Virus record (IMG/VR): IMGVR_UViG_3300011116_000062
Coordinates: 1 to 61,632 of that record
Source: a virus
Direction: 5' to 3' (one strand)
Length of the DNA stretch: 61,632 nucleotides
In this document: piece after piece, positions 1 through 61,544 of the stretch
Layout: the number at the start of each line of letters is the position of its first letter
Numbering within the stretch: the first letter of the stretch is position 1
The notes under the pieces: model-generated
Database searches by the model: none
Told to the model about the DNA's origin: nothing
The model's input: only the letters and a program-made list of their open reading frames with translations
Program-made: the position numbers and the translations under genes

Positions 1-52
1 GCCTCCCCCTTTTTTTGTCCCCGCTTCGGCGGGGCCTATACCAGTTCCATAG

Positions 53-104: not shown

Positions 105-123
105 TTCTGGGATTTTCCCAGAA
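105..123. promoter_or_regulatory. Palindrome copy 1, TTCTGGGA-TTT-TCCCAGAA
   Basis: This is a perfect 8-3-8 inverted repeat and one of four copies in the window, all outside genes. It is probably the binding site of a dimeric regulator, or possibly an RNA hairpin. No clear promoter could be assigned to this copy. Confidence 0.75.
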
Positions 124-133
124 TCTCGCTGCA

Positions 134-150
134 ACCCTGCGTAGCAGGGT
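134..150. repeat. Inverted repeat ACCCTGC-GTA-GCAGGGT
   Basis: This is a perfect 7-3-7 inverted repeat 10 bases after palindrome copy 1, with the same arm-loop geometry but a different sequence. No T-run follows on either strand, so it is not a terminator. It could be a second operator. Confidence 0.55.
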
Positions 151-270
151 ACACCAATTCGTTTTGGCCGTCAACTGCCTGCCCCTTGTTCCAACTTCGT
201 AGATTCTGTTCCAAGTCGTTCCAACCGATTGGAACAAGTTTTTGCCATGTATATCAAGCACTTACGCGAC

Positions 271-300
271 TTGTTCCAATGTTCCAAGTTTTTTAGGGTA
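271..300. repeat. 30-bp inverted repeat, left arm
   Basis: This arm is the reverse complement of 391-420 with one mismatch. It contains two iterons and a run ending in TTTTTTAGGGTA. The arms are separated by 90 bases, so cruciform extrusion or a long RNA stem is possible. Confidence 0.8.
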
Positions 301-390
301 TACCTACCCCCGCATGGTAAAAAACTCGATCGGATGAGAAGGCAGCGCGGTGCGTCAACCCAAAATAAAAAAGTCACGGAGAACCCGCTC

Positions 391-420
391 TACCCTAAAA
401 AAGTTGGAACATTGGAACAA
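391..420. repeat. 30-bp inverted repeat, right arm
   Basis: This arm starts TACCCTAAAAAAG and contains the iterons at 404 and 412. It pairs with 271-300 with 29 of 30 matches. A pyrimidine-rich, AT-rich stretch follows immediately. Confidence 0.8.
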
Positions 421-676
421 CCTCATATTTTTTACTCTCTACTACTACTACTATATTATAAGTTCTTCTTCTTCTCTCTACTCTCTCACCTAGCAAAATC
501 AAGCACTTACTCAACCTACCCCGTCGCACCTTATACTATCAATGTGTCCACCTTCCCTATACTATCTGAGCCAGAGTACAACTTCGAAAACTGGAACATT
601 TGGAACAAATCCGCCCCGACTTGGAACAACCCCGAAACCGCTACACAAAAAGTGTACAATTATTTGTTCACAAGGT

Positions 677-705
677 TTGACATAGTACAAGAAACATGAG
701 ACAAT
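677..705 (+). promoter_or_regulatory. Early promoter 1 (TTGACA-N17-GACAAT)
   Basis: A perfect -35 (677-682), a 17-base spacer and a 4/6 -10 (700-705) face the first early gene. The expected start is near 712. Palindrome copy 2 begins 47 bases after the -10, inside the 5' leader. This suggests transcription by the host sigma70 polymerase, with regulation downstream of the start. Confidence 0.6.
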
Positions 706-752
706 ATCAGAATGAAAAAGCGTCCTGATTTAGCCAAGTGAGTGCAGAGCGG

Positions 753-771
753 TTCTGGGATTTTCCCAGAA
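753..771. promoter_or_regulatory. Palindrome copy 2, TTCTGGGA-TTT-TCCCAGAA
   Basis: This perfect 8-3-8 inverted repeat lies in the predicted leader of the first early operon, about 35 bases before its GGAGG ribosome site. It sits at roughly +41 from the predicted transcript start, the same geometry as copy 3. Confidence 0.8.
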
Positions 772-818
772 TCACAGAAAGTGCAGAGTCAGAAAGGTAA
801 CAACTGGAGGACATTGTT

Positions 819-1160
819 ATGAGCAAGAAGTGCAGCAACCGGGAAGCGCGAGGCCATGTTCAGAGCCGTACCCCGTTCACCGCGAACAACTTGTACGGAG
901 TGCGAGCAGGCACGAGCGAAGAACCCATGTACATTGTTTATTCCTACGGTGAGCATTGGCCGTTGTTCATCTACCACGAGCCGACAGACACATGGTTCGA
1001 AAACTCCGACAAGTACAGCGTGACCACGAGCAAGCACCGTTCGCAGTCGCACCCGCTGTGCGAGACCGTGAGCCGCCCGAAGCCGTTCATGCGTGACCTT
1101 GTGTATGTCGGTCTGGTCAAGGCGACATCGCTTGCGGGTAATGTGCGGGTGGCAGCATGA
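819..1160 (+). CDS. Small early phage protein, unknown function
   Basis: This 113-residue protein is the first gene of the early operon. GGAGG at 806-810 fixes the ATG. The leader CTGGAGGACATTGTTATG is almost the same as the one before the MoxR gene at 3820. The middle is aromatic-rich (YSYGEHWPLFIY) and is followed by a polar stretch with KYSVTTSKHRSQ. I recognise the type as a conserved phage hypothetical but know no function. Its position right after a strong promoter suggests very early expression, as for host-takeover proteins; that is inference. Confidence 0.85.
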   Translation: MSKKCSNREARGHVQSRTPFTANNLYGVRAGTSEEPMYIVYSYGEHWPLFIYHEPTDTWFENSDKYSVTTSKHRSQSHPLCETVSRPKPFMRDLVYVGLVKATSLAGNVRVAA

Positions 1161-1366
1161 GCCGGGAGGACTATGGCTGCATCAAGTGCGGCAAGCCGGT
1201 GAATCCTGCGAGATGGGAACTTGGTTACAACATCTGCATGAGCAGCGCGTGTGCCAGACCCGCTCCGGTACGCACCATCGTGCCGATGCACAAGAGCAAC
1301 TACATGGTCATCACCGACAAGCGTGACCTGATGGGTATTAACAATAAAGGAGGGTTCTACCGATGA
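1157..1366 (+). CDS. Small zinc-finger-like early protein
   Basis: This 69-residue protein starts in a 4-base ATGA overlap with the gene before, so the two are translationally coupled. A CxxC pair near the N-terminus (CIKCGK) and two later cysteines (CMSSAC) could bind one zinc ion. The remainder is basic with no domain I recognise. It may bind nucleic acid or protein in the host-takeover phase. Confidence 0.8.
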   Translation: MSREDYGCIKCGKPVNPARWELGYNICMSSACARPAPVRTIVPMHKSNYMVITDKRDLMGINNKGGFYR

Positions 1367-1530
1367 GCCATTGGAGAGAGATACAACACATCCCAGACTT
1401 CAACGGCAAAACCGTTGCCAACATCGAGTTTGACGGATACGAGCATTTCATCATCAAGTTCACCGATGGCACGCGGCTGCACATCCGCGAAATGCAACAG
1501 GCTGGACAAATTACTTGGGAGGGTAAGTGA
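1363..1530 (+). CDS. Small early protein (55 residues)
   Basis: The ATG overlaps the previous stop (ATGA) behind an AGGAGG site at about 1348-1354. The protein begins MSHWREIQHIPDF and ends QITWEGK. Its pattern of short strands (KTVANIEFDGYEHFIIKFTDGTR, broken here as VANIEFDGYEHF then IIKFTDGTR) suggests a small beta-sheet fold. The unbroken overlap chain with both neighbours is the main evidence that it is real. Function is unknown. Confidence 0.75.
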   Translation: MSHWREIQHIPDFNGKTVANIEFDGYEHFIIKFTDGTRLHIREMQQAGQITWEGK

Positions 1531-1531
1531 C

Positions 1532-1945
1532 ATGGCTAAGAAGAAGTACGCACGGAAGTGCAACGCTTGCGGCAAGGGCATGAACGAGGGGTACTGCGTC
1601 GAAAATGGTATGGAGTACTACTGTTCTGACGAGTGCCTCCACACGGAGATTACGCCCGAAGAGTGGCTTGAGTTGTACAACGATGGCGAGGGCGATTCGT
1701 ATTGGACTGACTGGAGCGAAGACCCCGACGAGTACCTTGATGATGAGGATGAGGATGAGGATGAGGATGAGGATAAGGGTAAGGATGAGGACGATTTGGT
1801 CGAAGCGTTGCAGGACACGGTAGCCAAGCAATCTCTGGTCATCAGAGATTTGATGGGCGAAGCAGACCGACTGCGTGAAGTAATAAACGCGCAGAACAAG
1901 GTCATTGAGACACTTACGCTGCTCAAGAAGCAGCAGGAGGTGTGA
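1532..1945 (+). CDS. Zinc-ribbon protein with polyacidic linker and coiled coil
   Basis: This 137-residue protein starts at the ATG at 1532, behind GGAGGG at 1518-1523; an upstream in-frame start would overlap the previous gene without a ribosome site. Residues about 10-36 hold a CxxC and a later CxxxC-type pair (CNACGK, CSDEC), a zinc-ribbon layout. An Asp/Glu tract near residues 65-85 is encoded by a GATGAG hexanucleotide repeat. The last 50 residues look like a coiled coil. Acidic phage proteins sometimes mimic DNA, but that role is only a guess. Confidence 0.85.
   Translation: MAKKKYARKCNACGKGMNEGYCVENGMEYYCSDECLHTEITPEEWLELYNDGEGDSYWTDWSEDPDEYLDDEDEDEDEDEDKGKDEDDLVEALQDTVAKQSLVIRDLMGEADRLREVINAQNKVIETLTLLKKQQEV
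1738..1790 (+). repeat. Hexanucleotide GATGAG repeat inside a gene
   Basis: Five or more near-perfect GATGAG units encode alternating Asp-Glu residues. Such repeats can change length by slippage without shifting frame, so the acidic tract may vary between relatives. Confidence 0.8.
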
Positions 1946-1946
1946 G

Positions 1947-2102
1947 ATGAAGATTCAATTGGACATCGAGGACATCGACGACCCGCTCTACGACGCTCTA
2001 CTAGAAACATTTCGCTACAAAGCGAAGATGATGGGACTTGATCCCGATGCGTACAGATACGGCGAGTGGGTTGTGTCGTGCAAAGCGGAGGACAAGGTAT
2101 GA
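1947..2102 (+). CDS. Small early protein (51 residues)
   Basis: The start is the ATG at 1947, just after an AGGAGG site that lies in the end of the upstream gene. The acidic N-terminus (MKIQLDIEDIDDP) is followed by an amphipathic stretch and GEWVVSCKAED. Its stop overlaps the start of the next gene. I do not recognise the family. Confidence 0.75.
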   Translation: MKIQLDIEDIDDPLYDALLETFRYKAKMMGLDPDAYRYGEWVVSCKAEDKV

Positions 2103-2245
2103 ACGATGCAGACCTGCGGATACTGGAGATGTACTACCAAGACGGCATGAAAGAGACGGAGATTGCAGAGTCTCTTGGGCTGTCGCTGCTCACCATCCAT
2201 GAGGTGTTGGCAGCGTGGGAAAACGGCGAGTACAAAACACGATAG
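2099..2245 (+). CDS. 48-residue helix-turn-helix protein
   Basis: The ATG lies in a 4-base overlap with the stop of the previous gene. Almost the whole protein is one HTH: LRILEMYYQDGMKETEIAES followed by LGLSLLTIHEVL, the pattern of sigma70 region 4 and many small regulators. It probably binds DNA alone or recruits RNA polymerase. It is a candidate reader of one of the palindromic sites near its operon, which is inference. It is easily missed because it is so short. Confidence 0.75.
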   Translation: MNDADLRILEMYYQDGMKETEIAESLGLSLLTIHEVLAAWENGEYKTR

Positions 2246-2255
2246 GAGGAGTGAG

Positions 2256-2420
2256 ATGGACAAGAAAGTAATCATCGAAGTCCGGGGTGGCATTCCCGAA
2301 ATCATCGAAGCACCGGACGGCGTGGATGTGGAGATACGGGACTACGACACCGAGTTCTACGAGGACGAGGACTTGCATGAGGACGACGAAGGCGAGAAGT
2401 ATTTCTTGAGGGAGGGTTGA
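2256..2420 (+). CDS. Small acidic early protein (54 residues)
   Basis: The ATG at 2256 follows AGGAGGAG. The N-terminal MDKKVIIEVRGGIPEII looks like two beta strands. The rest is strongly acidic (YDTEFYEDEDLHEDDEGEK). I recall similar short proteins in other phages, without a known function. Confidence 0.8.
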   Translation: MDKKVIIEVRGGIPEIIEAPDGVDVEIRDYDTEFYEDEDLHEDDEGEKYFLREG

Positions 2421-2422
2421 AC

Positions 2423-2611
2423 ATGGACTATTTATTTTCAATCGGTGACCGGGTGATGTGGAGCGGAGCATGGGGGACGAAAGCACCCCGTCCTGCACGG
2501 ATTGTCGGGCGTGGCGCGAAGAACAACGAGCCAGTCTACGACTTGGATAACGGCCATTGGGCATACGAGTACCAACTAGAAGCGACGGCTGATGCTGTCG
2601 AGGAGGAGTGA
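2423..2611 (+). CDS. Small SH3/KOW-like early protein (62 residues)
   Basis: The ATG at 2423 follows GGAGGG. The sequence SIGDRVMWSGAWG, then PARIVGRG, PVYDLDNGHW and a final YEYQLEA fits a small five-stranded barrel of the SH3/KOW/Tudor kind. Function is unknown. A second small protein of similar layout is in the late block at 46642-46812. Confidence 0.75.
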   Translation: MDYLFSIGDRVMWSGAWGTKAPRPARIVGRGAKNNEPVYDLDNGHWAYEYQLEATADAVEEE

Positions 2612-2612
2612 C

Positions 2613-2807
2613 ATGGAAGACGATATCGAGTGGTGGCGTAGTGAGGACAGCGACGACCGATGGATTGCTGAGCAAGTCCGTCAGTACGAACAACAGGCAT
2701 GGGAGGAAGAGCAAGCCGCCCGTGAGTTGGTAAAAAGTATTGACTCTGATGTCAAGATATCTTATACTATTCCTAAATGGGCGATCAGCCCGAGAGTTGA
2801 TGAGTAG
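2613..2807 (+). CDS. Small acidic helical early protein (64 residues)
   Basis: The start is the ATG at 2613 behind AGGAGGAG. The first 45 residues are charged and probably helical (EDDIEWWRSEDSDDRWIAEQ). The end of the gene contains the promoter for the next operon at 2740-2768, so the coding sequence and the promoter share bases. I do not recognise the family. Confidence 0.75.
   Translation: MEDDIEWWRSEDSDDRWIAEQVRQYEQQAWEEEQAARELVKSIDSDVKISYTIPKWAISPRVDE
2740..2768 (+). promoter_or_regulatory. Early promoter 2 (TTGACT-N17-TATACT)
   Basis: The -35 (2740-2745) and -10 (2763-2768) each match the sigma70 consensus at 5 of 6 bases with an ideal 17-base spacer. The promoter lies in the last codons of the upstream gene and faces 2859. 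Palindrome copy 3 begins 49 bases after the -10, as for promoter 1. Confidence 0.75.
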
Positions 2808-2817
2808 TGCAAACACA

Positions 2818-2836
2818 TTCTGGGAATTTCCCAGAA
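2818..2836. promoter_or_regulatory. Palindrome copy 3, TTCTGGGA-ATT-TCCCAGAA
   Basis: This perfect 8-3-8 inverted repeat extends to 10 bp arms with the flanking A and T. It sits between promoter 2 and the gene at 2859. It may control the MoxR/VWA operon together with the first early operon. Confidence 0.8.
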
Positions 2837-2858: not shown

Positions 2859-3770
2859 ATGAGCGTTGAGACTGACAAGTTGTTGAAGAAGCCGAACCAT
2901 GTCATCTCCCTCGCTACGTCTGCCATGTTGGTCGATGCGCGGGTGACGGTGTGGACTGGCACGAAGCAGGACAGCGAGATAAGCGAGGAGGTCACGACTG
3001 CCAAGAAAGCAGAGCGTGACTCGGGCAAGTTCGTGAAGCACTTGCTTGCGAATTGTCCAGAGCATAAGCGTTGCATGAACTACCGCCAGATTGTCTACAA
3101 CTGGATGCAGCGGCGTTCGTATGACTGGGCGGGATCGCTACGCTTGCTACCTGTCGTGGACTACCCGAAGTTCATGGCTGAGTACACGCAACATGAGAAG
3201 ACGTTCTACGAGTTGGTGGACACGTTCATCCAAGCGTACCCGACCATCGTGAGTAACCGTGCGTTCGCCTTGGGTGACATGTTCGACAGGAACGACTACC
3301 CCGACCCAGCGGAAGTGCGTAGCAAGTTCACGATTAACTTGTACCGCTCAGAAGTGCCGACCGGGGATTACCGGGTGGCTATCGCGCAGGATGCCGTCGA
3401 TGACTTGGCGGTGACCTACGAGCGACAGGCACGGAGTCTGGTCGAGACGGTGCTGACTCAGCAGAAGGATCAGTTGGTGGACATCATGAAGACACTTGCT
3501 GAGAACTGTGCTGTGGAGACTATCAGCGAGAACGGTGAGTTGAAGGTCAAGCGGAAGAAACTGTACGAGTCTACGCTCACACGAGCGCAGGAACTATGCG
3601 AGACCTTCCGTGACTTCAACATCACACGAGATAACGAGTTGGAGACTGTGCGTACAGAGTTGGCACGAGTTGTGGGTGGGCTGACCATCGACAAGTTGCG
3701 CGACAGCGATACCACACGCACCGTCGTGCATGAGGAGTTGACCGACATCCTGAAGAAGTTCGGTCTGTAA
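2859..3770 (+). CDS. DUF3150-like protein of the MoxR/VWA cassette
   Basis: This 303-residue protein is the first gene behind promoter 2. It is mostly helical and lacks catalytic motifs that I can see; the middle has NLYRSEVPTGDYRVAIAQDA and long charged helices follow. DUF3150 proteins typically sit next to a MoxR ATPase and a VWA protein in phages and plasmids, and that is the gene order here. It may be the substrate adaptor or effector of the ATPase. The family name is from memory and should be tested by profile search. Confidence 0.8.
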   Translation: MSVETDKLLKKPNHVISLATSAMLVDARVTVWTGTKQDSEISEEVTTAKKAERDSGKFVKHLLANCPEHKRCMNYRQIVYNWMQRRSYDWAGSLRLLPVVDYPKFMAEYTQHEKTFYELVDTFIQAYPTIVSNRAFALGDMFDRNDYPDPAEVRSKFTINLYRSEVPTGDYRVAIAQDAVDDLAVTYERQARSLVETVLTQQKDQLVDIMKTLAENCAVETISENGELKVKRKKLYESTLTRAQELCETFRDFNITRDNELETVRTELARVVGGLTIDKLRDSDTTRTVVHEELTDILKKFGL

Positions 3771-3819
3771 GGTAAGTGTGTTTCCGTACATAGAGTAACT
3801 ACATCTGGAGGATATTGTT

Positions 3820-4929
3820 ATGGCTATTCAGTTCATCGAGCCGTGGAGCATCAACGACCTGCGTAAGTCTGTGCCGTTGTATGCGGAGGAGTTGACCATC
3901 ATCGCCATGGGTGAGCCGGGTGTCGGCAAGTCGAGCGTGTTGAGCGGCATCGCTGAGGACATGGGTGACAAGTGGCGCAAGGTTGGCGATGGCTATCCTG
4001 ATGACAAGTACGACTACATCTATGTTGACTGCGCGGTGCGTGACCTTGGCGATACCGTGATGAGCGTACCGGACAACGAGCGCACCCGACTCATGCAGTT
4101 GGTGTCTGACTTGTTCAGGTTGGACAGTCCGAAGCCGAAGGTCATCATGCTTGACGAGTTCATGAAGACTCCGAAGTTGCTGCAAGCAATGTGGACACGG
4201 CTCATGCTTGAGCGTTGCGTAGGTGATACTCCGCTGCCCGAAGGTAGCATGGTGTTTGCTACGAGTAACAACGAGAGCGACGGAGTAGGCGATACTCAGT
4301 TGGCACACTCTGGCAATCGCACGATGCGTGTCCGTATCCGCAAGCCGAACGCTAACGAGTGGCTGACATGGGCGGGTAATAACAACATACCTACCGTGAT
4401 CCGTGCATGGGTTGCTATGAACCCGTCTGCACTCGCGTCTTACCTTGATGGTGGACAGGACGATAATCCGTACATCTTCAATCCCAGTAAGCGTGAGTTG
4501 TCGTTCGTATCTCCTCGCAGTCTCGCCAAGTCTAGCGTGGTGGTGCGTAACCGTGAGAAGGCAGGTGACCGGGTGACGGAGACGGCACTCGCAGGTGTCA
4601 TCGGTGCAGCAGCAGCCAAGGACATGACTGTCTTCATGAAGTTGGAGCGCGACTTGATTCCGGTGAGCAAGGTCATCGCAGACCCGACAGGTGTCCCGCT
4701 TCCTGATAACAAGTCTGCCGTGTTCCTCATGACATTCAACGCCATCGACACCATCGAGACGCAGGATGACCTGAGCAGTTTCATGCAGTTCATCGAGCGC
4801 GTGAAGTCCGTCGAGATTGAGTCGCTGTTCTTCACCATGTGTATGCAGAGTAAGCGTGTGGTGCGACTTGCCAAGAACAACAAGCGCATCATGGAGTGGG
4901 CCAAGGACAACTACGAGTTGCTTGTTTAA
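3820..4929 (+). CDS. MoxR-type AAA+ ATPase
   Basis: This 369-residue ATPase has Walker A at residues 31-39 (GEPGVGKSS), Walker B at 108-114 (VIMLDEF) and sensor 1 near 146-151 (FATSNN). MoxR ATPases act as chaperones that activate or insert cofactors into a partner, usually with a VWA protein, and the partner gene follows 11 bases later. The start is the ATG behind CTGGAGGATATTGTTATG. A phage role may be in virion assembly, host takeover or defence evasion; none is shown by the sequence. Confidence 0.92.
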   Translation: MAIQFIEPWSINDLRKSVPLYAEELTIIAMGEPGVGKSSVLSGIAEDMGDKWRKVGDGYPDDKYDYIYVDCAVRDLGDTVMSVPDNERTRLMQLVSDLFRLDSPKPKVIMLDEFMKTPKLLQAMWTRLMLERCVGDTPLPEGSMVFATSNNESDGVGDTQLAHSGNRTMRVRIRKPNANEWLTWAGNNNIPTVIRAWVAMNPSALASYLDGGQDDNPYIFNPSKRELSFVSPRSLAKSSVVVRNREKAGDRVTETALAGVIGAAAAKDMTVFMKLERDLIPVSKVIADPTGVPLPDNKSAVFLMTFNAIDTIETQDDLSSFMQFIERVKSVEIESLFFTMCMQSKRVVRLAKNNKRIMEWAKDNYELLV

Positions 4930-4940
4930 TCGGAGGAGTT

Positions 4941-6137
4941 ATGAGCGCAGTAAGAAAGTATGACGCAGAGTTCGAACTCAAGAGAGCGCACGTTGATTTG
5001 CTCAAGCATCGTGAGACCTGCCAGTACGCGGGAATCATCATGATGGGCGAGAGCAGCGTGGTGCATGATGCCAAGGCATGTAGGACTGCCTACACAGATG
5101 GTATCAACAAGCGTTATGGGGCGGCTTTCATGGAGACGCTGACTCGACCGCAGGTCGCAGGACTTGTGCTGCACGAGAACTTCCATGTGTTGCTCAAGCA
5201 CCTGCCACGCCATCGTGACCTGATGAAGAAGAACGCGAGACTTGCCAACGTGGCGATGGACTACGTTGTGAATGACATGATCCATGAGATTAAAGACAAG
5301 TCCGTCGTGCAGTTGCCGCCCGGTGCGCTGTATCACCCGATGTTTGCCGGGTGGTCTGTGCGTCAGGTGTACGACTACCTTGAGAAGGACATGGAGAAGA
5401 ACGGTGGCGGTGGCATGGGTGAGGGTGAGCCGCTAGATGAGCATGACTTCGATGCCGTCGAGGAGATGACACCGGAGGAGTTGAAGGAACACGATGAAAA
5501 AGTACAAGAGGCCATCCATCAAGGCGGGATGTTGGCGGGCAAGTTCGGTAACAAATTGCCACGACAAATTACTGACCTGATGAAGCCGGAGATTGACTGG
5601 GCTGAAGTCCTGCGCGACTTCTGGACTAGTGCGATGCGAGGCTATGACGAGTACACCTACGCACGCATGAACCGTCGTAGGTTGGCAGATGATTTGTACC
5701 TACCAACGATGTATTCCGAAAGGATCGGGCGCGTCGTGTTGGCTATCGACACATCCGGCAGTATCGGACAGGAGCAGTTGAATCTTGTGGCATCCCAAAT
5801 CATCCAGTTGTGCGACACCATGCCGCCCGATGAGATTGTGGTGCTGTGGTGGGATACCGAGGTACGTGGTAAGCAAGTCTTTACCGATAGCAACTACGCT
5901 AGTCTCGCTACGCTTCTCAAACCTGCCGGAGGCGGTGGTACGAGGGCATCGTGTGTCAGCCAATACATGAACAAGCACAGCATGACCGCTGATTGCGTGA
6001 TCGTGTTCACCGATGGACACATCGAGTGTGACGTTGATTGGAAGGTGACATCACCTACGCTGTGGCTCATTGACAGGCATGGTCACAGTAACTTCAAGCC
6101 GCCTGTGGGTACTCAGAAAGTCAAGGTCAACAAGTAA
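4941..6137 (+). CDS. Metallopeptidase/VWA protein (DUF2201 type)
   Basis: This 398-residue protein has an HExxH-like zinc site at residues 78-82 (HENFH) in the N-terminal half. A Glu/Asp/Gly-rich linker spans about 150-190. A VWA domain follows, with the MIDAS motif DTSGS at 270-274. This two-domain layout is typical of DUF2201 proteins that pair with MoxR ATPases. The ATG at 4941 is chosen because GGAGGAG lies just before it; earlier in-frame starts lie inside the ATPase gene. It probably forms a complex with the ATPase and processes or remodels an unknown target. Confidence 0.92.
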   Translation: MSAVRKYDAEFELKRAHVDLLKHRETCQYAGIIMMGESSVVHDAKACRTAYTDGINKRYGAAFMETLTRPQVAGLVLHENFHVLLKHLPRHRDLMKKNARLANVAMDYVVNDMIHEIKDKSVVQLPPGALYHPMFAGWSVRQVYDYLEKDMEKNGGGGMGEGEPLDEHDFDAVEEMTPEELKEHDEKVQEAIHQGGMLAGKFGNKLPRQITDLMKPEIDWAEVLRDFWTSAMRGYDEYTYARMNRRRLADDLYLPTMYSERIGRVVLAIDTSGSIGQEQLNLVASQIIQLCDTMPPDEIVVLWWDTEVRGKQVFTDSNYASLATLLKPAGGGGTRASCVSQYMNKHSMTADCVIVFTDGHIECDVDWKVTSPTLWLIDRHGHSNFKPPVGTQKVKVNK

Positions 6138-6148
6138 GGAGATATGTT

Positions 6149-7198
6149 ATGAATATCAATGCACAGTCCGCTCCCCCATTTTTCTTGACCGATGTATATG
6201 ACGATGTTACCAAGAAAGATGTGATGTCTAGCCGGTTCTGGCCGATTATCGTGGCATCAATCAACCACATCAAAGACTCGACAGATTCATTGGTGGTCGG
6301 TGGGATTGAGCGGTTCCCGGACAGCAGTGTAATCAAATCGGTAACGCTGACTAACCGTGCCGGATTGAATGTTGTAAGCATGTACGCAGACTCGACTGAC
6401 CCCAAATCCACTATCCACTTTGGTGGGGTGTACGAGGCTACCCGTCAAAACGGGCACAACAACATTCATGTCTCAGTCAAGAGCAACAACGTCAAATACA
6501 TCATCCGCAAGATTAAAGACCCGCAGGGAGATCCGATCAACACGCTGAATAACAGATGGGCTGAGGCTAAAAATTACTTCGCAGAGCAGGTGTCTGCCTT
6601 AATCAGTCGTGGGCTTCGTAACGGCGGTGCGTTGGGTTCCGAGATACGAATCACGCTCAATCAAGATGCGGTCACGGCTCTGGCAAAAGTTCACATGGGC
6701 AGCATGAACAAGATAGACATGCCAGATTTTGTTCTAGCGCACATCGAATCACAGTATCGGATGTACCTTGATAAGCAGAAGAAGGCGTTGACCTGCGCCG
6801 AGGATATCAAGCAGATGTTCGGTAACGATAAGTGGGTGCTGCTCAGCGATATGAGTAGCGGTGCTGTCGTTGTGGGAGCCATAAGCAGGCAACCGTTGAT
6901 GGATGCCGTGGACATCTTCATCAAGACCGGCGAGTTGCTTAGCACACACAAGTTCAAATACATCAATGCTGTCGTTCCGATTAAGCGATACAAGTCGTTC
7001 AACGATGTCGATGAAGATATCCGGCGGGACATCGAGATGCAGTTGACCATGTTGAAGTTACATACCAAGTCAGATGGGCCGCTTTTACCGACCTCCGACA
7101 GTATGGAGCGTGGTGAGCATGTCTACACAGACTTGGGCGCGATGACCTCCGGTTCGTACATGACCTCGCCCTTTATTATCGTGGACAAAACCATATGA
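6149..7198 (+). CDS. Unknown protein after the MoxR/VWA cassette
   Basis: This 349-residue protein starts 11 bases after the VWA gene behind AAGGAGATAT. It has mixed alpha/beta content and no signal peptide or membrane segment. I see no catalytic motif. The spacing suggests it is co-transcribed with the cassette and may be its fourth component. Its stop overlaps the next start. Confidence 0.85.
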   Translation: MNINAQSAPPFFLTDVYDDVTKKDVMSSRFWPIIVASINHIKDSTDSLVVGGIERFPDSSVIKSVTLTNRAGLNVVSMYADSTDPKSTIHFGGVYEATRQNGHNNIHVSVKSNNVKYIIRKIKDPQGDPINTLNNRWAEAKNYFAEQVSALISRGLRNGGALGSEIRITLNQDAVTALAKVHMGSMNKIDMPDFVLAHIESQYRMYLDKQKKALTCAEDIKQMFGNDKWVLLSDMSSGAVVVGAISRQPLMDAVDIFIKTGELLSTHKFKYINAVVPIKRYKSFNDVDEDIRRDIEMQLTMLKLHTKSDGPLLPTSDSMERGEHVYTDLGAMTSGSYMTSPFIIVDKTI

Positions 7199-7587
7199 GT
7201 AAATTGGAGTTACATGTTCCGGTGGATGGCGCGAGATATTACTTACCGGTGCGCTTGGGCAGCAAGACCGTAACTGTGTGGGTAGCAGAAAACTATTGTA
7301 GGTATTTCGCACGTAGCGAGTTACCGGACTGGCTCAGACAACGCTTAACCATGATCATGGCATGTGATAACAAGCATCTATCCACGAGGGACAAGATGGA
7401 CTACGCCGTCGCGCCGAACGGGATAGTGCTGCGCTCCGTGTACGAGTCGAGCAAGCGTGAATGTCCTGAAGGGTTCGAAGACATAGGGTGGCGTGTGAAT
7501 GACAAATACTTTTACGTGGTGACAGATAGTACCTATGTAGATGAGTTGAAGGTTGGTGCTGAACGTGTAACGGAGAAACTGCGATGA
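7195..7587 (+). CDS. Unknown small protein (130 residues)
   Basis: It starts in an ATGA overlap with the gene before. It looks like an alpha/beta protein with a strand-rich start (LELHVPVDGARYYLPVRL) and a helical middle (LPDWLRQRLTMIMA). The family is not recognised. It also overlaps the nuclease gene that follows by 4 bases. Confidence 0.8.
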   Translation: MSKLELHVPVDGARYYLPVRLGSKTVTVWVAENYCRYFARSELPDWLRQRLTMIMACDNKHLSTRDKMDYAVAPNGIVLRSVYESSKRECPEGFEDIGWRVNDKYFYVVTDSTYVDELKVGAERVTEKLR

Positions 7588-7871
7588 CTCCAGAGGGCAA
7601 AGTCAAAGCGAAGGTCAAGAAAGTTCTTGCGGAGGTAGGCGCGTACTACGCCATGCCGATGGGAACTGGTATGGGTTCTTCTGGCGTCCCAGATTTTTTA
7701 GTTTGTAAAGGAGGGTTGTTCTATGGTATAGAGTGTAAGGCAAATGGCAATAAACCAACTGCGCTTCAAGAAGCGAACCTGAAACGCATACGCGAAGCCG
7801 GTGGGATTGCGCTAGTGATTGATGAAACCAATGTTGATAATTTGAAACAGGAGATGTGTTGTGAAAGATAA
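7584..7871 (+). CDS. VRR-NUC family nuclease
   Basis: This 95-residue protein matches the small phage form of the VRR-NUC branch of PD-(D/E)XK nucleases. The core PDFLV (near residue 34), GIECKA (near 48) and a following Q in ALQEANL supply the D, ExK and Q active-site residues. Members of this family cut branched DNA such as Holliday junctions. In this phage it could resolve replication intermediates before packaging. The length is normal for single-domain members. Confidence 0.9.
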   Translation: MTPEGKVKAKVKKVLAEVGAYYAMPMGTGMGSSGVPDFLVCKGGLFYGIECKANGNKPTALQEANLKRIREAGGIALVIDETNVDNLKQEMCCER

Positions 7872-8277
7872 GACTACGAAAGCCGCTAAGATTCTTGCTC
7901 TTACTGAGAAGGGTGGGTCAGTCAAAGATATCGCCAAGGCTGTGAAGTGCGATGATGCCTACGTGTACTACGTGCGTTGGATGAATAAGAACAAGAAGAA
8001 AAAGCCGTCGAAGATTATTACGGCGGTGAAACAGATGAAACAAGCGTTGGATTCTATCGAGAAGAAGCCCGACCTCGTGAATCACCCGCCGCACTACACA
8101 GACGGCGGCGTTGATACGTTGACCTACATCGAAGCCAAGGACTTGAACTATCGACTCGGCAACGTGGTGAAGTACGTCAGCCGTTGCGGTAAGAAGTTGA
8201 ATTCAGATCCGTTGCAGGACTTGATGAAGGCTCGCTTCTATCTTCAGCGTGAGATTGACATTCGGAGAGAAGCGTAA
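7861..8277 (+). CDS. DUF3310 protein with N-terminal HTH
   Basis: This 138-residue protein uses a GTG start behind CAGGAG, inside the end of the nuclease gene (11-base overlap). The N-terminus has an HTH-like segment (SVKDIAKAVKCDDAYVYYVR). The C-terminal half is the DUF3310 signature: NHPPHYTDGG, then LGNVVKYVSRCGKK and DLMKARFYLQREI. DUF3310 proteins are common in phages and often labelled nucleotide kinase, with no P-loop and no firm evidence. The added HTH suggests DNA contact. Confidence 0.9.
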   Translation: MKDKTTKAAKILALTEKGGSVKDIAKAVKCDDAYVYYVRWMNKNKKKKPSKIITAVKQMKQALDSIEKKPDLVNHPPHYTDGGVDTLTYIEAKDLNYRLGNVVKYVSRCGKKLNSDPLQDLMKARFYLQREIDIRREA

Positions 8278-8393
8278 TGTTCCGGGCCATCAGATGGTGG
8301 TGGCTTAGACACAAAGCCGATGTCATACGGGAGTGGGGGCGCGTCCCCCCTCCCAACTGGCGTTGTTCACGAGGAGGGAGGGAATACTGGTGA
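8277..8393 (+). CDS. Tiny basic protein (38 residues)
   Basis: The ATG overlaps the previous stop behind GGAGAG. The product begins MFRAIRWWWLRHK and is very basic with five tryptophans in all. The stop overlaps the next GTG start. The perfect coupling on both sides supports a real gene, but it is so short that a leader-peptide role is also possible. Confidence 0.55.
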   Translation: MFRAIRWWWLRHKADVIREWGRVPPPNWRCSRGGREYW

Positions 8394-8617
8394 ACAGCAA
8401 AGACGAAGACGAAGCCTTTGAAATCGAGATGTCGGCACACCCTTGGGGGTACGGACAGCAACGTAAAGAAGACTTTGAATTCGCCATGGCTGCTATCCGT
8501 ATGCATGGACTCTGGAATGAAGCGTTGGTAATCATGAATGAGATTCAACGACTCAAGGCTGAACTAGAAGAAGCGAGGAAAAAATCGTGCCCCACGAATA
8601 CATCAAAGACAGACTGA
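8390..8617 (+). CDS. Small early protein (75 residues)
   Basis: The GTG at 8390 is preferred because GAGGAGGGAGGG lies just upstream and it overlaps the previous stop. The protein is acidic at the N-terminus and has a helical end (EIQRLKAELEEARKK). It overlaps the next gene by 31 bases in another frame. Function is unknown. Confidence 0.7.
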   Translation: MNSKDEDEAFEIEMSAHPWGYGQQRKEDFEFAMAAIRMHGLWNEALVIMNEIQRLKAELEEARKKSCPTNTSKTD

Positions 8618-8823
8618 ATCAACAGATACGTGACCTGACTCATGAAAACTCCATACTCAAGAACTCCCTGTACCGCAAGGACAGGGAATATATCGATTTA
8701 CAGACGCGCTACAACGATGCCCATGAGAACGTCAATTTTTTAAGCGTAATACTTGGTGTGGCGCTGTTACTGCTGATCGGTGTGACGATTGCAGCCATCA
8801 GACATTGGGGAGGTGCGCCGTGA
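8587..8823 (+). CDS. Small single-pass membrane protein with coiled coil
   Basis: This 78-residue protein starts at a GTG behind GAGGAAA. Residues 8-48 form a charged coiled coil. Residues about 50-72 are a hydrophobic membrane helix (FLSVILGVALLLLIGVTIAAI). The N-terminus would face one side of the inner membrane as an anchored rod. Location among early genes argues against a lysis role; it may tether a replication or host-takeover factor to the membrane. Confidence 0.75.
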   Translation: MPHEYIKDRLNQQIRDLTHENSILKNSLYRKDREYIDLQTRYNDAHENVNFLSVILGVALLLLIGVTIAAIRHWGGAP

Positions 8824-9050
8824 CCCCAAGCAACGACCAAATCAACGAGTGGCTCAAGGCCGCAGAGGCTTCAGAGCAGCCACGCTTCATTGTCTTTGCC
8901 ACGCTTGCCGCCGAATGGGGTGCGAAGCAGGAGCGTGAGGCGTGTGCGAAGTTGGTGGAATCACGCAAGACGGGCGCAAACGAGTTGATGGATGCGGTGC
9001 GCGACATGGAAGCCGCCGCCATCCGCAAGCGAGGGAAGGTGAAGCCGTGA
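8820..9050 (+). CDS. Small helical protein (76 residues)
   Basis: The GTG at 8820 overlaps the previous stop and follows GGGGAGG. The sequence has the EREACAKLVES pattern seen in many small phage proteins. It is charged and helical. No function is known to me. Confidence 0.7.
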   Translation: MTPSNDQINEWLKAAEASEQPRFIVFATLAAEWGAKQEREACAKLVESRKTGANELMDAVRDMEAAAIRKRGKVKP

Positions 9051-9187
9051 GTGAGAATCCCGAAACAGTCAAAGCCTTGCAAGAAGAAGCCGAGAGAGAG
9101 GCTGAGCGACTTAAACAATTAGGTTGGACGCGGACAGATTTTGTGAATGCCCTCATCGCGGAGTTGGACAAGGAGGTAAAGCCGTGA
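9047..9187 (+). CDS. Tiny helical protein (46 residues)
   Basis: The GTG overlaps the previous stop (GTGA). The product is a highly charged helix (ALQEEAEREAERLKQ) followed by TRTDFVNALIAELDKE. It is flanked on both sides by coupled genes. Function is unknown. Confidence 0.6.
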   Translation: MSENPETVKALQEEAEREAERLKQLGWTRTDFVNALIAELDKEVKP

Positions 9188-9537
9188 GCGACAGCATCCC
9201 GCTGCACAAAAGCGATTGTGCGTTGCTTCTTGGCGGCTATCAATGCACCTGCGGGCTTCACCAACGGGATAGCAAGACGCTCCCCGCCGAGCAGCCGAAG
9301 CCCGAGGCGTTTCAGGTGGCAAAGCAGTTGACGCTGCGTGCGATTGAGGAATTGACCGAAGATAATGTCCGACTACGCCTTGAGAACGGGCGGCTGCGGG
9401 AGGCGTTGGAGAAGTCGCTGACTGATGAACAGATCCAGCAGATTGCCGCGTCGATTGACCGCTCAATGCCGCTTGGGTCAGCCAAAATCTTGTTTGCTCG
9501 ACGCATTGAAGCCGCCCTGCGGCGGGAGGAGACATGA
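9184..9537 (+). CDS. Small protein with Cys/His-rich N-terminus
   Basis: This 117-residue protein starts at GTG behind AAGGAGG and overlaps the previous stop. The first 25 residues hold three cysteines and two histidines (HKSDCALLLGGYQCTCGLH), a possible zinc site. A coiled coil spans about 55-85. I recall the N-terminal motif in other phage hypotheticals. It may be a small DNA- or protein-binding factor. Confidence 0.75.
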   Translation: MSDSIPLHKSDCALLLGGYQCTCGLHQRDSKTLPAEQPKPEAFQVAKQLTLRAIEELTEDNVRLRLENGRLREALEKSLTDEQIQQIAASIDRSMPLGSAKILFARRIEAALRREET

Positions 9538-9827
9538 CCATCCCGAAGCAATTCCAGTACAACGGTCACATCGTACAGGTGCGGTTGATACAGCCATCGG
9601 CATGGCCTCACCCGCAGGACACCATCGGTTGCCTTGACCCTGATTACATGACCATCGACCTGCGTAAGGATGCATGTCCAAGCGTACTGCACCAGAAGTT
9701 CCTGCACGAAGTTGTGCATTTGATATTACTGCCCATCGACCGGGAACTTGCTGAGAACGAGGTGTTCGTGGAACAACTGAGTCAAGTGATGAACCAACTT
9801 GGCATGACGGTAGAGGGGACGAAATGA
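9534..9827 (+). CDS. Small putative zinc metallopeptidase
   Basis: This 97-residue protein starts in an ATGA overlap. It has an HExxH motif (LHEVVHLILL) and a later glutamate-rich helix (NEVFVEQLSQVM) that could give the third ligand, as in ImmA/IrrE or M78-type enzymes. Single-domain versions of this size occur in phages. ImmA proteins cleave repressors, so a role against host or prophage regulators is possible but not shown. Confidence 0.75.
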   Translation: MTIPKQFQYNGHIVQVRLIQPSAWPHPQDTIGCLDPDYMTIDLRKDACPSVLHQKFLHEVVHLILLPIDRELAENEVFVEQLSQVMNQLGMTVEGTK

Positions 9828-10069
9828 CTCCCGACGACGAACTTGACCCAAACACGCTATACGCGAATGGCTTTGAGGATGCACTCATCGGGCGTGGTTG
9901 GCAGCACACGAAACTGCTCGCCGTGTACGACTACAACAAGTGCGTAGAGATACTTATGGAACGCGATGAGATGACGCACGAGGAGGCCATCGAGTGGATG
10001 GAGTACAACGTAGTCGGGGCGTATGTCGGTGAGCACACGCCGATATTCATGCTGCCGAAGGAGGAGTAA
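9824..10069 (+). CDS. Small acidic protein (81 residues)
   Basis: The ATG overlaps the previous stop. The motif LMERDEMTHEEAIEWMEYNV followed by VGAYVGEHTPIFM is one I recall in many phages. It is acidic and helical with a beta-like end. Function is unknown. Confidence 0.8.
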   Translation: MTPDDELDPNTLYANGFEDALIGRGWQHTKLLAVYDYNKCVEILMERDEMTHEEAIEWMEYNVVGAYVGEHTPIFMLPKEE

Positions 10070-10070
10070 G

Positions 10071-10271
10071 GTGGGAACGGAAGAAGACATACTTGATCTG
10101 ATCCGTTCGTTGCCCGATGAGATGAACAACTTCTCGACGACGACGGAGATGAAGTTCCTGACGGTAGGCAGCGTCCTCTGGGCGTGTCGTGATGAAATTA
10201 TTTACCTGCGTAGGCGGGTGAGGGAGTTGGAACATGGTCAAAAAGGTAAAACTAAGAGCAAAGTCCGTTAG
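10071..10271 (+). CDS. Small protein (66 residues)
   Basis: The GTG at 10071 follows AAGGAGGAG. The first two thirds are helical, then a basic tail (ELEHGQKGKTKSKVR). It overlaps the next gene by 38 bases. No family is recognised. Confidence 0.65.
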   Translation: MGTEEDILDLIRSLPDEMNNFSTTTEMKFLTVGSVLWACRDEIIYLRRRVRELEHGQKGKTKSKVR

Positions 10272-10542
10272 GGACTGCGTTACCTATCCGATAGCCGACC
10301 CTGAAAGGGAGAAGGCGTGGGACAGGTTCATACGGAGTTGGGACGGTAAAACCATGAGACATTCGTTCCCCAAGGATGAACATGGAGCCAGATTCCCGCT
10401 TGGCGGGTGCTACTACGAACTGTGGTGCATCGCTTGGGAGTTTGCGTGGGACGCAGGGTGGCGTAAGCGGTGGGAAGTAGAGGCGAAGGAAGCCGAGGAA
10501 GCAAAAAATGCAACGCCCAAAAAAGGTAAGAAAGTGCCCTGA
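10234..10542 (+). CDS. Basic Trp-rich small protein (102 residues)
   Basis: The ATG lies inside the previous gene, behind GGGAGTTGGAAC. The protein is basic, has eight tryptophans and ends in a Lys-rich tail. The pattern YYELWCIAWEFAWDAGWRKR suggests an aromatic helix. The family is not recognised. Confidence 0.65.
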   Translation: MVKKVKLRAKSVRDCVTYPIADPEREKAWDRFIRSWDGKTMRHSFPKDEHGARFPLGGCYYELWCIAWEFAWDAGWRKRWEVEAKEAEEAKNATPKKGKKVP

Positions 10543-10678
10543 GTGCAAGCGGGTGTTCGCCAACCCCGAATCGTTTCGTATGCACAAGTTAAAAGGCATC
10601 GGGTGCAGGACAGCAGAAGGACTGATAGCCCGAGGCTACATAGTGATTGATGGGAAGTGGATAAACAAAGTTAAATGA
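10508..10678 (+). CDS. Small C2H2-like zinc-finger protein (56 residues)
   Basis: This short gene overlaps the end of the one before in another frame and stops 9 bases before the polymerase start. CPECKRVFANPESFRMHKLK continues to a cysteine that completes a CxxC-x12-H-x6-C finger. The rest is basic. It is likely a nucleic-acid-binding protein coupled to the polymerase gene. Confidence 0.7.
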   Translation: MQRPKKVRKCPECKRVFANPESFRMHKLKGIGCRTAEGLIARGYIVIDGKWINKVK

Positions 10679-10687
10679 GGAGGTGTT

Positions 10688-12547
10688 ATGAGTTTCGTGA
10701 CGCTCGATTTCGAGACGTACTACGCCAAGGACTTCTCTCTGTCCAAGATGACTACCGAGGAGTACATCCGCGATCCTAGGTTTGAAGTTATTGGTGTCAG
10801 CATCAAGGTCGATGATGACATCCCCGAATGGATCACAGGGCCGAAAGATTTCATCAAGGCTAAGTTGGACAGGATCGATTGGGCTAACTCAGCGGTGCTG
10901 TGTCACAACACACAGTTCGATGGGGCCATCCTTGCATGGCACTTCGGAATAGTGCCTTCGTATTACTTCGATACGCTTTGCATGGCGAGAGCCGTACATG
11001 GTGTGGAAGCGGGTGGGTCGCTCAAGGCTTTGGCCGAGCGGTATCGGTTAGGCGAGAAAGGTACCGAGGTCATCAATGCTCTGGGCAAGTACCGCAAGGA
11101 CTTCACTAATAGTGAACTTGCCGACTACGGCGAATACTGCTGTAACGATGTCGCTCTGACATTCAAATTATTCAACGTGTTGATGTCGGACTACTTCCCA
11201 CAGTCGGAACTAGACCTGATCGACATGACGTTGCGTATGTACACACAGCCGGTGCTGCAAGTGAACGATGCTTTGCTCATCGAGAGATTGGAGGAGATTA
11301 AGCAAGAGAAGACAGAACTCCTGCACAGTCTCAAGGCCAATCTCAAGTGCGAAACTGAAGAAGATGTACGCAAGAAGTTGGCAAGCAACCCGCAATTCGC
11401 TCAGGTGTTGATTGACCACGGCGTTGAGCCGCCCAAGAAAGTAAGTCTTACCACAGGTAAGGAAACGTGGGCGTTGGCTAAGAACGACGAGGGGTTTATC
11501 GCGTTATCGGAACACGATAATCCCTTTATCCAACAACTATGCGCGGTTCGTTTGGGTACTAAGTCCACCATCGAGGAGTCGCGTATCGAGCGGTTCATCA
11601 GCATCGGTTCTCGCAATCGAGGTCGGCTCCCTATCCCGTTGAAATACTACGGCGCACATACTGGGCGTTGGGCCGGGTCTGACTCGGTAAACTTCCAGAA
11701 CTTGCCTAGCCGGGATAAAAAGAAGAAGACGCTGAAGAACTCAGTCTCCGCCCCCGATGGTCAAATGGTAATTAACTGTGACTCATCACAGATTGAAGCG
11801 CGTGTGCTGGCGTGGCTTGCCGGTCAAGATGATGTAACTGAGCAGTTCCGCAAGGGAGACGATGTGTACAGCATCTTCGCTACCAAGATTTACAAGCAGC
11901 CCATCAGCAAGGCCAACCCTGTCGAACGCTTCGTCGGCAAGACCTGCATCCTCGGACTGGGTTACGGGACTGGCGCTGCCAAGTTACGTCACACGCTAAA
12001 GACTCAGCCGCCGGGCGCAGACTTACCTGAAGATGAGTGCAAGCGCATCGTGGACCTGTATCGCAACACCAACGACAAGATCGTTGAATTATGGCGCGAG
12101 TGTGATTATGCATTAAATTGCATAATGTCTTGGCCTGAAGGCAAGAAGCCTTTCTATCTCGGTGCGCGTAAGTGCGTGACGATTGACAGCAAGGGGGTGC
12201 GCCTACCCAATGGCCTATACATCCGCTACCCCAACCTGCGGGTTGAGGACGACAAGACTGTCTATGATTCTCGTAAAGGAACCGTGTCGATTTGGGGCGG
12301 GGCCATGGTTGAGAACGTGGTACAGGCACTTGCAAGAATCATAGTCGGTGAACAAATGCTGAACATGCGTGACACTTACCGACCCGTCCTGACAGTCCAT
12401 GACGCAGCGGTGGTTGTTACTCACAAGGAGAAGAAGGACGAGGCGCTTGCGTTTATAACACAAGTAATGTCTACTCCTCCTGAATGGGCAGCAGGTTTGC
12501 CGGTCGCTTGCGAAGCCAAGTACGGCGAGTCCTATGGAGAATGTTAG
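10688..12547 (+). CDS. Family A DNA polymerase with 3'-5' exonuclease
   Basis: This 619-residue enzyme copies the phage genome. The exonuclease begins at the N-terminus with DFET (residues 7-10). Polymerase motif A is DSSQIE at 365-370. Motif B runs from R414 through K418 to Y426. Motif C is HDA at 571-573, where the usual family sequence is HDE. The length fits phage enzymes lacking a 5' nuclease domain. GGAGG just before the ATG fixes the start. The enzyme works with the primase-helicase at 17542 and the probable SSB at 16286. Confidence 0.95.
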   Translation: MSFVTLDFETYYAKDFSLSKMTTEEYIRDPRFEVIGVSIKVDDDIPEWITGPKDFIKAKLDRIDWANSAVLCHNTQFDGAILAWHFGIVPSYYFDTLCMARAVHGVEAGGSLKALAERYRLGEKGTEVINALGKYRKDFTNSELADYGEYCCNDVALTFKLFNVLMSDYFPQSELDLIDMTLRMYTQPVLQVNDALLIERLEEIKQEKTELLHSLKANLKCETEEDVRKKLASNPQFAQVLIDHGVEPPKKVSLTTGKETWALAKNDEGFIALSEHDNPFIQQLCAVRLGTKSTIEESRIERFISIGSRNRGRLPIPLKYYGAHTGRWAGSDSVNFQNLPSRDKKKKTLKNSVSAPDGQMVINCDSSQIEARVLAWLAGQDDVTEQFRKGDDVYSIFATKIYKQPISKANPVERFVGKTCILGLGYGTGAAKLRHTLKTQPPGADLPEDECKRIVDLYRNTNDKIVELWRECDYALNCIMSWPEGKKPFYLGARKCVTIDSKGVRLPNGLYIRYPNLRVEDDKTVYDSRKGTVSIWGGAMVENVVQALARIIVGEQMLNMRDTYRPVLTVHDAAVVVTHKEKKDEALAFITQVMSTPPEWAAGLPVACEAKYGESYGEC

Positions 12548-12549
12548 TT

Positions 12550-12894
12550 ATGACTGAATCAAGACTTGATGAGATGCGTAGGCAAGTAGCAGAGTTTCAC
12601 GCTAAGCATCCCGAAGTGTGGCGGCTCTTTGAGCAGTTCACGTTTCAGATGATCGGGCGTGGGTTCAAACACTACTCCGTTAACGCGGTCTTTGAGCGTA
12701 TCCGATGGGAGATGGATGTCGGAGGAGATGGTGTTGATACGTTCAAATTAAACAATAACTACAGAGCGTTCTACGCTAGACGGTTTATGAAGATACACCC
12801 GCAGTACGATGGGTTCTTCAGGACTCGGGTACAAGTATCCGACCACCGTCCTGCCACTAGGATGCCTGAACTTACGCCGCACGATTACCAATGA
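12550..12894 (+). CDS. Conserved small replication-region protein
   Basis: This 114-residue protein starts at the ATG two bases after the polymerase stop; upstream in-frame starts lie inside the polymerase. It is basic and helical, with FQMIGRGFKHYSVNAVFERI and NNNYRAFYARRFMKIHP. I recall this type next to phage replication genes, with no known role. It overlaps the nuclease gene start by 4 bases. Confidence 0.8.
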   Translation: MTESRLDEMRRQVAEFHAKHPEVWRLFEQFTFQMIGRGFKHYSVNAVFERIRWEMDVGGDGVDTFKLNNNYRAFYARRFMKIHPQYDGFFRTRVQVSDHRPATRMPELTPHDYQ

Positions 12895-13544
12895 TCCAAT
12901 GGAGTTATAGCAGTCTCAAGGAATTCTTGAACTGCCCCAAACAGTATTACCACCTGAAGGTAGCGAAGGACTACCAGAAACAGACTACGCCCCAGATGTT
13001 CTACGGGAGCGAGGTACACAAGGCGCTTGAAGATTACGTTCGTGAAGGCAAGCCTCTCGCCAAGAACTACGAGTTCATCAAGCCTGTGCTTGATGAGTTG
13101 TTAGCGATACCCGGTGAGAAGTATCCAGAACACAAGATGGCGTTGACCGTCGATAAGGAGCCATGTGACTTTGATGCTGAGAACCGATGGGTACGTGGCA
13201 TCGTTGACCTGTTGATTGTGGATGGTGAGACTGCTTACATCATCGATTACAAGACAGGCAGCAATCGATACCCAGACCCGAAGCAGTTGAAGTTGATGGC
13301 GTTGATGACTTACGCGCACTTCCCAGCGGTCAAAAGAATCAAAGCAGGTCTGTTGTTTGTACTGAAGAACACCTTCATACCTGAAGAGTATCAACGAGAC
13401 GAGTCTGAAAACCTTTGGAAAGGGTTCATCAACGACACCAACCGACTAAAACTCGCCTACGAGAACTCCATGTGGCCTCCGCAGCCGACTGGTTTATGCG
13501 GGTGGTGTCCTGTTAGTAGTTGTAAGTTTTATAAAGAGAGGTAA
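12891..13544 (+). CDS. Cas4/RecB-type PD-(D/E)XK nuclease with 4-Cys cluster
   Basis: This 217-residue nuclease has H43 in GSEVH, D106 in GIVDLLI, D119 and K121 in DYKTG, and a following Q132. These are the catalytic set of the RecB/Cas4 family. Cysteines at 15, 203, 206 and 211 (CP near the start, CxxCxxxxC near the end) match the iron-sulfur cluster layout of Cas4 and AddB. It probably resects or trims DNA ends during replication or recombination. No cas genes or CRISPR array are nearby. Confidence 0.9.
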   Translation: MIQWSYSSLKEFLNCPKQYYHLKVAKDYQKQTTPQMFYGSEVHKALEDYVREGKPLAKNYEFIKPVLDELLAIPGEKYPEHKMALTVDKEPCDFDAENRWVRGIVDLLIVDGETAYIIDYKTGSNRYPDPKQLKLMALMTYAHFPAVKRIKAGLLFVLKNTFIPEEYQRDESENLWKGFINDTNRLKLAYENSMWPPQPTGLCGWCPVSSCKFYKER

Positions 13545-13547
13545 GTT

Positions 13548-13934
13548 ATGAATGCGTATGAATATGATATCGAGTTGCAAAAACTTAAACTCCACCTCAG
13601 GAGGACGCGCGACCGGGTGGCCCATCTCAACGATGAAATCAATATTCATAAATCGGTGATTCGCGGATACAGGAACAGGCACTCAGACTTGCTCATTAGT
13701 TACGACCGATTAGTGAACAAGTTTGAGGCCAACTTCAAGTTTCATTCGTACATCAGGGATGTACTGGATCAGACCGCAGACTTAATGGAGAACTGCAATG
13801 CCGTACACGAAGACTCCGAGACCATACAAACACGAGTATCAGATGCAGTTAAAGCGCGGCGAACACGAGCGCCGAATGGAACGGCAACGCGCAAGAAACG
13901 AGTACGACAAGAAGGGTGTCAGCCGGAAAGGTAA
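13548..13934 (+). CDS. Coiled-coil protein overlapping the next gene
   Basis: This 128-residue protein begins with a long basic-acidic coiled coil (residues 5-60). From about residue 84 on it shares DNA with the following gene in another frame, and that part has an odd, Arg/Thr-rich composition. Either both frames are used, which is a 137-base overlap, or the ancestral stop was lost. The first 80 residues look reliable. Confidence 0.65.
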   Translation: MNAYEYDIELQKLKLHLRRTRDRVAHLNDEINIHKSVIRGYRNRHSDLLISYDRLVNKFEANFKFHSYIRDVLDQTADLMENCNAVHEDSETIQTRVSDAVKARRTRAPNGTATRKKRVRQEGCQPER

Positions 13935-61392: not shown

Positions 61393-61517
61393 AAAGATAA
61401 CCGGGGGTGTTTATATATACAGGGGGGTGGGGTCCAGCCTAGTAAATATGGAAATTGAGTCGTGATTTGTGAGGATCATAGGGGGGGCGGGGTGCGTGCG
61501 GAGTCCCAACTTTGCGC

Positions 61518-61539
61518 GGGGGGGCCGGGTAGGGTGGGG
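61518..61539 (+). other. G-quadruplex motif
   Basis: Four G runs (7, 3, 3 and 4) are separated by loops of 2, 2 and 1 bases, the classic G-quadruplex pattern. It lies 5 bases before palindrome copy 4 on the same strand, and other long G runs lie nearby. Confidence 0.7.
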
Positions 61540-61544
61540 TTTCG

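Follow-up and report, generated by a model that had tools for sequence, protein, structure and literature searches.

Lineage-Specific Palindromes at the Early Control Points of an Abundant Phage Group and a Candidate Gene for Their Reader

The virus record IMGVR_UViG_3300011116_000062 of IMG/VR, analyzed here over its whole length of 61,632 nucleotides (the window), raises the question of what reads a palindrome that stands at its control points. There are exactly four copies of TTCTGGGA-N3-TCCCAGAA, at 105–123, 753–771, 2818–2836 and 61545–61563. An initial annotation, made from the letters of the window, had listed these four, placed them all outside genes and taken them for a regulon under one phage protein. 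The list is complete. A search of the whole window at up to three mismatches adds no copy, where 0.19 would be expected by chance, and none of 100 shuffles reached four. All four are outside plausible genes, overlapping only spurious antisense open reading frames (ORFs), and the many chance-frequency copies within genes that would have told against a regulon are not seen in the window. The explanation that we favor, at a probability of somewhat under 60%, is that the palindromes are double-stranded DNA operators of a dimeric regulator made by the phage, likely the product of a gene that we call gX, and that this regulator blocks early transcription.

The early genes run rightwards (they include DNA polymerase A, an SNF2 helicase, a PD-(D/E)XK nuclease and a primase), and the late genes run leftwards with the terminase at their head. 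Copy 2 (753–771) belongs to the leader of the early gene that comes first after it (819–1160, plus strand, function not assigned), 47 bases downstream of the –10 of the promoter-like sequence TTGACA-N17-GACAAT (677–705, plus strand), a consensus match and not proof of a promoter. Copy 3 (2818–2836) is in the leader of a gene for a 303-amino-acid protein (2859–3770, plus strand; gene 2859 below), 49 bases after the –10 of TTGACT-N17-TATACT (2740–2768, plus strand) and 22 bases before the ATG. About three such promoter matches would be expected by chance in the scan. The position of the second is kept in relatives, nearly all of which have a –10 at the same place before gene 2859. The distances of 47 and 49 bases given in the initial annotation are thus correct, but the fixed leader position at about +40 that it drew from them does not hold across relatives, where the spacing from –10 to site is 9 bases in L010, 32 in L035 and about 80 in L042. 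L010 and G001 also carry a copy between gene 2859 and the following ATPase gene; the window has lost this fifth copy (3770–3820).

Copy 4 (61545–61563) has the leftward terminase operon on one side and, in relatives, the rightward gX on the other. Its counterpart in L010 is 156 base pairs (bp) upstream of the gX start. Copy 1 (105–123), which reads TTCTGGGA-TTT-TCCCAGAA, is in relatives 135–136 bp downstream of the gX stop. The gene itself, 675 bp in L010, is absent from the window record. The window starts (1–40, plus strand) inside what is in L010 the terminator behind gX (GCCTCCCCCTTTTTTTGTCCCC) and ends (61592–61632, plus strand) in the sequence leading up to gX there (TTGTATTAGCAATGCTC). 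Therefore, the two ends adjoin with gX missing, and the break of the record falls exactly at gX. When the ends are joined, copies 4 and 1 share one divergent region. Their counterparts in L010 are 969 bp apart and enclose only gX, of 225 amino acids.

We compared about 50 relatives, with 52 loci of gene 2859 homologs, and added relatives found by terminase; each genome was scanned de novo for palindromes. Such scans also pick up repeated palindromes that are terminators (GGGGGCGAAAGCCCCC), and these were excluded. The initial annotation had proposed searching for its motif in related phages, and what that search found is that the same control points carry a different palindrome in each lineage. 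Homologs of gene 2859 again have a palindrome in their leaders, where the orthologous place of copy 3 is occupied by each clade's own sequence. One multi-copy palindrome per genome was found, with 3–12 copies, or about 20 in one cultured phage. All copies within a lineage change together. The TTCTGGGA-N3 class belongs to the clade of the window, with five perfect sites in G001 and three in G003. TCTGAC-N3 is found in G015, G016 and G018 (4–7 exact copies), TCCACG-N4 in G022 and G024, GCGTTAG-N4 in G026 (five copies) and a TTACACC-like class in G033. The terminase relatives add CCTGAC-N3 (6–9 copies), CGTATT-N4 (eight), CGTATC-N4 (six), CGTGTC-N4 (five), GTTACA-N3 (six), CGTGGGA-N2 (three) and TTCCGGA-N5 (four). 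G054, of 62.6 kb, has 12 exact copies of CCTGAC-N3-GTCAGG, all within 6,969–15,180, and G039 has 11 of CGTATT-N4-AATACG; nearly all copies in these two are in the early region, and neither palindrome occurs in the window. Across classes, a single foreign copy was seen, a CGTATT-N4 in G040, a genome of the CGTATC class. In relatives, some copies fall within genes or a long way from any start.

No relatives were found at the DNA level among cultured phages. The distantly related cultured Planktothrix phage Pag-Yong1 has about 20 exact copies of GGTTCA-N3-TGAACC (21 in the two parts scanned), often placed immediately after the stop codon of an early gene and before the next gene's Shine-Dalgarno. 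Its G+C content is 69%, and under OL906435.1 (L149, L150), Pag-Yong1, MinM2 and Pra-JY27 are listed with equal length (65,014) and match score and different hosts, so that the stated hosts merit checking.

The gene that best fits the reader is gX, a rightward ORF of 180–295 amino acids that evolves very fast and has a copy of the site on either side. The distances of the flanking sites to gX are typical of the class: –156/+136, –104/+35, –127 to –131/+3 to +14, or about –45/–1. The bracketing is also present at L171/L181 and L214. The upstream copy of the CCTGAC class is within gX's own leader, behind a TATAAT, and this placement suggests that gX may regulate itself.

Whether the site class follows gX or the phage as a whole can be read from the terminase relatives, of which the search returned at least 599. 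The site classes fall in scattered positions over the terminase tree, with 18 changes, and sister terminases have different classes (L157/L167, L197/L194). A BLAST match between gX proteins was found for 36 of the 42 same-site pairs and for 8 of the 364 different-site pairs. When only pairs with terminases at least 92% identical are considered, the figures are 7/7 and 1/18, and the single exception joins the related sites CGTATC and CGTGTC. Loci fetched solely by gX homology (L240, L244, L245, L247, L248, L249) carried in all six cases the predicted class, and none of the other classes tested; four of these are informative, since the gX of L244 and L248 is identical to the query. Five terminase relatives without a gX-like ORF (L156, L169, L170, L172, L184) have no repeated palindrome. 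Profile comparison joins the gX of the TCTGAC class to that of the CCTGAC class (95–100% probability) and CGTATC to CGTGTC (100%). The CGTATT-class gX did not align with that of the CGTATC class in this comparison, although the sites are similar. The initial claim of one regulon under a phage-encoded factor is supported. We infer direct binding by gX from its co-segregation with the site, and gX is probably the factor that reads the site. The pair of regulator and operators most likely passes from phage to phage by recombination, without being tied to the terminase gene.

L227 and L228 give a closer view of gX. The two proteins are 86% identical, with the differences crowded into the last 45 residues, and both bracketing sites have changed alike, from CGTATTAAGTAATACG to CGTATTAACTAACACG. 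These last residues may point to a specificity region. In L124 (G025), two gX paralogs stand in tandem in one genome (7080–8598). In L188, L193, L216 and L226, the terminase and gX are separated by an ORF resembling a glutamine amidotransferase (MRPTIGLFHKHPHASAHCC...).

Several observations weigh against gX as the reader. No match was found above the cut-off in Pfam or PHROGs, and no relative by sequence in the PDB, weak matches to designed proteins being taken as effects of composition. In both AlphaFold models, helices predominate, one of them long, alongside a small beta element. The models are moderately confident (predicted local distance difference test, pLDDT, 81.5 and 83.7; predicted template modeling score, pTM, 0.60 and 0.62) and contain no recognized DNA-binding domain, and Foldseek matches them to nothing in PDB or BFVD. 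In the TCCACG group, a gX at 32% identity keeps the site while the one in G033, at 33%, has another, so identity is not a clean predictor of class within that group. The gX group of L158, L166, L187 and L225 has no clear multi-copy palindrome, and no gX homolog was identified in Pag-Yong1 despite its sites. Finally, other early genes partly travel with gX, and the tree of gene 2859 fits the classes.

This last point opens the possibility that gX is a passenger between the sites and that the reader is another early protein linked to it, such as the product of gene 2859, a neighbor or an unrecognized small protein. The tree of the 303-amino-acid protein agrees with the classes (99 for TTCTGGGA, 97 for CTGAC), and this match implies that the early genes tend to travel as one block. 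The 303-amino-acid protein of G003 is nevertheless 70% identical to that of G037, in which no such palindrome was found, as against 69% within the TTCTGGGA class, and it has no match to a DNA-binding domain. A protein with DUF3310 and helix-turn-helix (HTH) features does not follow class either, at 47–49% identity within classes and 50–51% between them. It is gX that drops most sharply between classes and that is bracketed by the sites. We therefore regard a linked reader as unlikely.

The palindrome could be read in DNA or in RNA. The sites are perfect inverted repeats whose arms are invariant within a genome and whose center varies in sequence and is fixed in length. To compare the two, mismatches were scored in the sense of transcription in 23 sequence sets. 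Next to 136 exact copies, there are 31 with a single transition-type mismatch, divided into 17 that would give G-U and 14 that would give A-C (p 0.72), and there is no compensatory double change in any of the sets. A structured RNA would keep its stem through compensatory or G-U changes, and this pattern is not found; what is found fits a dimer operator read as DNA, an inverted repeat in which arms and spacing are kept. The constant arms, the variable center of fixed length and the lack of G-U bias or compensation therefore indicate a dimer-bound DNA site and not an RNA hairpin. GACTCT-GAC-AGAGTC hairpins in the TCTGAC clade, first taken for covarying RNA stems, are shifted readings of TCTGAC-N3-GTCAGN.

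A leader hairpin acting as a translational operator or mRNA stabilizer would suit the many copies that stand directly before a Shine-Dalgarno, and the window version is predicted to fold at –10.2 kcal/mol. In two other classes, the predicted stem reaches only –2.6 and –2.8 kcal/mol, the copies inside genes or distant from starts do not fit such a role, and the element has no Rfam match. We consider it improbable. The initial annotation had offered a bound roadblock or a hairpin; the roadblock suits the position of the sites, and the hairpin is not supported. The palindromes are, on this comparison of sequences, very probably DNA operators of one phage-encoded factor.

The sites are found 9–80 bases behind a –10, at gene junctions, beside or within the gX control region and in the region separating the early arm from the late arm. 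The variable distance to the promoter argues against a phased activator. Most likely, gX would bind the site itself, act as a dimer and repress. In the mechanism that we propose, a dimeric sequence-specific regulator, probably the gX product, would bind the palindromes as double-stranded DNA in early-gene leaders, at gene junctions and beside or within its own leader. Once bound, it would block early transcription as a downstream roadblock or by a stoperator-like block of elongation, or by occlusion where the site touches the transcription start. Synthesis of the regulator would limit itself, leading to early-gene shut-off, and regulator and operators would change specificity together. We give repression by roadblock an even chance.

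A role in replication, partition or packaging instead of transcription is about as improbable as the hairpin. The non-coding region flanked by copies 1 and 4 contains TGTTCCAA repeats and might be an origin, but most copies are in leaders and junctions over several kb of early genes, and the TGTTCCAA repeats are retained where the class of palindrome differs. A host regulator, with palindromes mirroring different hosts, is slightly less probable again: hosts could differ between lineages, and none was found via prophages, but phages whose terminases are 97% identical can differ in class, and class tracks gX.

The initial annotation had named the products of 2099–2245 and 17162–17473 as candidate readers, and neither tracks the site across relatives. 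The first, a 48-amino-acid HTH protein, has no homolog in G001 or G003, in spite of their perfect sites. The second, a 103-amino-acid protein with weak HTH matches, is present in every relative covering its locus, but its recognition helix is identical in G003 (TTCTGGGA) and G016 (TCTGAC) and differs between L180 (CCTGAC) and G015 (TCTGAC) despite their common CTGAC core, so that we give it hardly any weight as the regulator.

An odd-length palindrome bound by a dimer, with regulator and operator diverging together, is the familiar pattern of lambda-type operators. Here, the sites are scattered over early leaders, not clustered at two promoters, and no cI- or Cro-like gene tracks the site. The stoperators of L5 and other cluster A mycobacteriophages are dispersed over short intergenic regions and read by one regulator, with consensus and regulator diverging together; they are 13-bp asymmetric, oriented sites of temperate phages, and the reader is a two-domain HTH monomer (PMC6550527, PMC9283540). 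Our sites are similarly numerous, dispersed and mostly intergenic (4 in the window, 11–12 in G039 and G054, 21 in the parts of Pag-Yong1), but they are palindromic, their candidate reader has no recognizable HTH that would relate it to the HTH repressor gp71 of L5, and their classes turn over completely, swapping in conflict with the terminase tree. Unlike L5, there is also no sign of a temperate life: no terminase relative was confirmed in 84,980 bacterial and archaeal genomes, which leaves the lineage without a prophage and without a host identified that way, and no integrase was recognized among the window proteins examined. The lytic T1-like phages TLS and Stevie have 16–20 intergenic repeats upstream of start codons, with unexplained function, which are asymmetric, 21–22 bp long and similar among T1-like phages (PMC11447400, PMC4319613). 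The lytic-looking setting is shared; palindromic symmetry, lineage specificity and a candidate reader are particular to our sites. In the temperate Bacillus phage SPbeta, dispersed SPBRE operators are read by a non-classical master repressor, MrpR, with a tyrosine-recombinase fold (PMC10516654). This is a precedent for dispersed operators with a non-HTH reader, although the moderately confident gX models match no PDB chain and thus give no sign of a tyrosine-recombinase fold.

A swapping lock-and-key pattern is not expected in phages without temperate signs. In temperate phages, incompatible operator-repressor types are explained by superinfection immunity. Here, specificity splits in a very abundant, mostly metagenomic phage group without prophage trace, and this raises the question of what drives the swapping in lytic phages. 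Tentatively, and at somewhat less than even odds, gX would represent a new DNA-binding family of undescribed fold with swappable regulator-operator modules of about 15 specificities, used for early shut-off in an apparently strictly lytic lineage; operators would diversify as in immunity, without lysogeny, for instance to avoid cross-regulation in coinfection. The case may bear on the unexplained repeats of the T1-like phages. If binding is confirmed, gX and its site classes would be a ready set of orthogonal regulator-operator pairs.

Some other features of the window were observed along the way. Gene 2859 has a homolog annotated as DUF3150 in the Synechococcus phage MinM2, and it is the first of a set with an ATPase (3820–4929) and a VWA protein (4896–6137). 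Nine of the 12 genome copies of the TGTTCCAA/TTGGAACA repeats fall within about 440 bp of AT-rich non-coding DNA at 187–628, a candidate replication origin. CCAGTTC/GTTCCA repeats recur behind gX in relatives of other classes (L207, L220), but the CCTGAC class has almost no GTTCCA. To the left of copy 4, at 61470–61545, a block like GGAGTCCCAA...GGGTGGGGT is kept across palindrome classes, possibly as a packaging site or late promoter. A large polyvalent protein of 2089 amino acids with an LPD38 domain is encoded at 20551–26820, and collagen-like repeats are present at 39843–41651.

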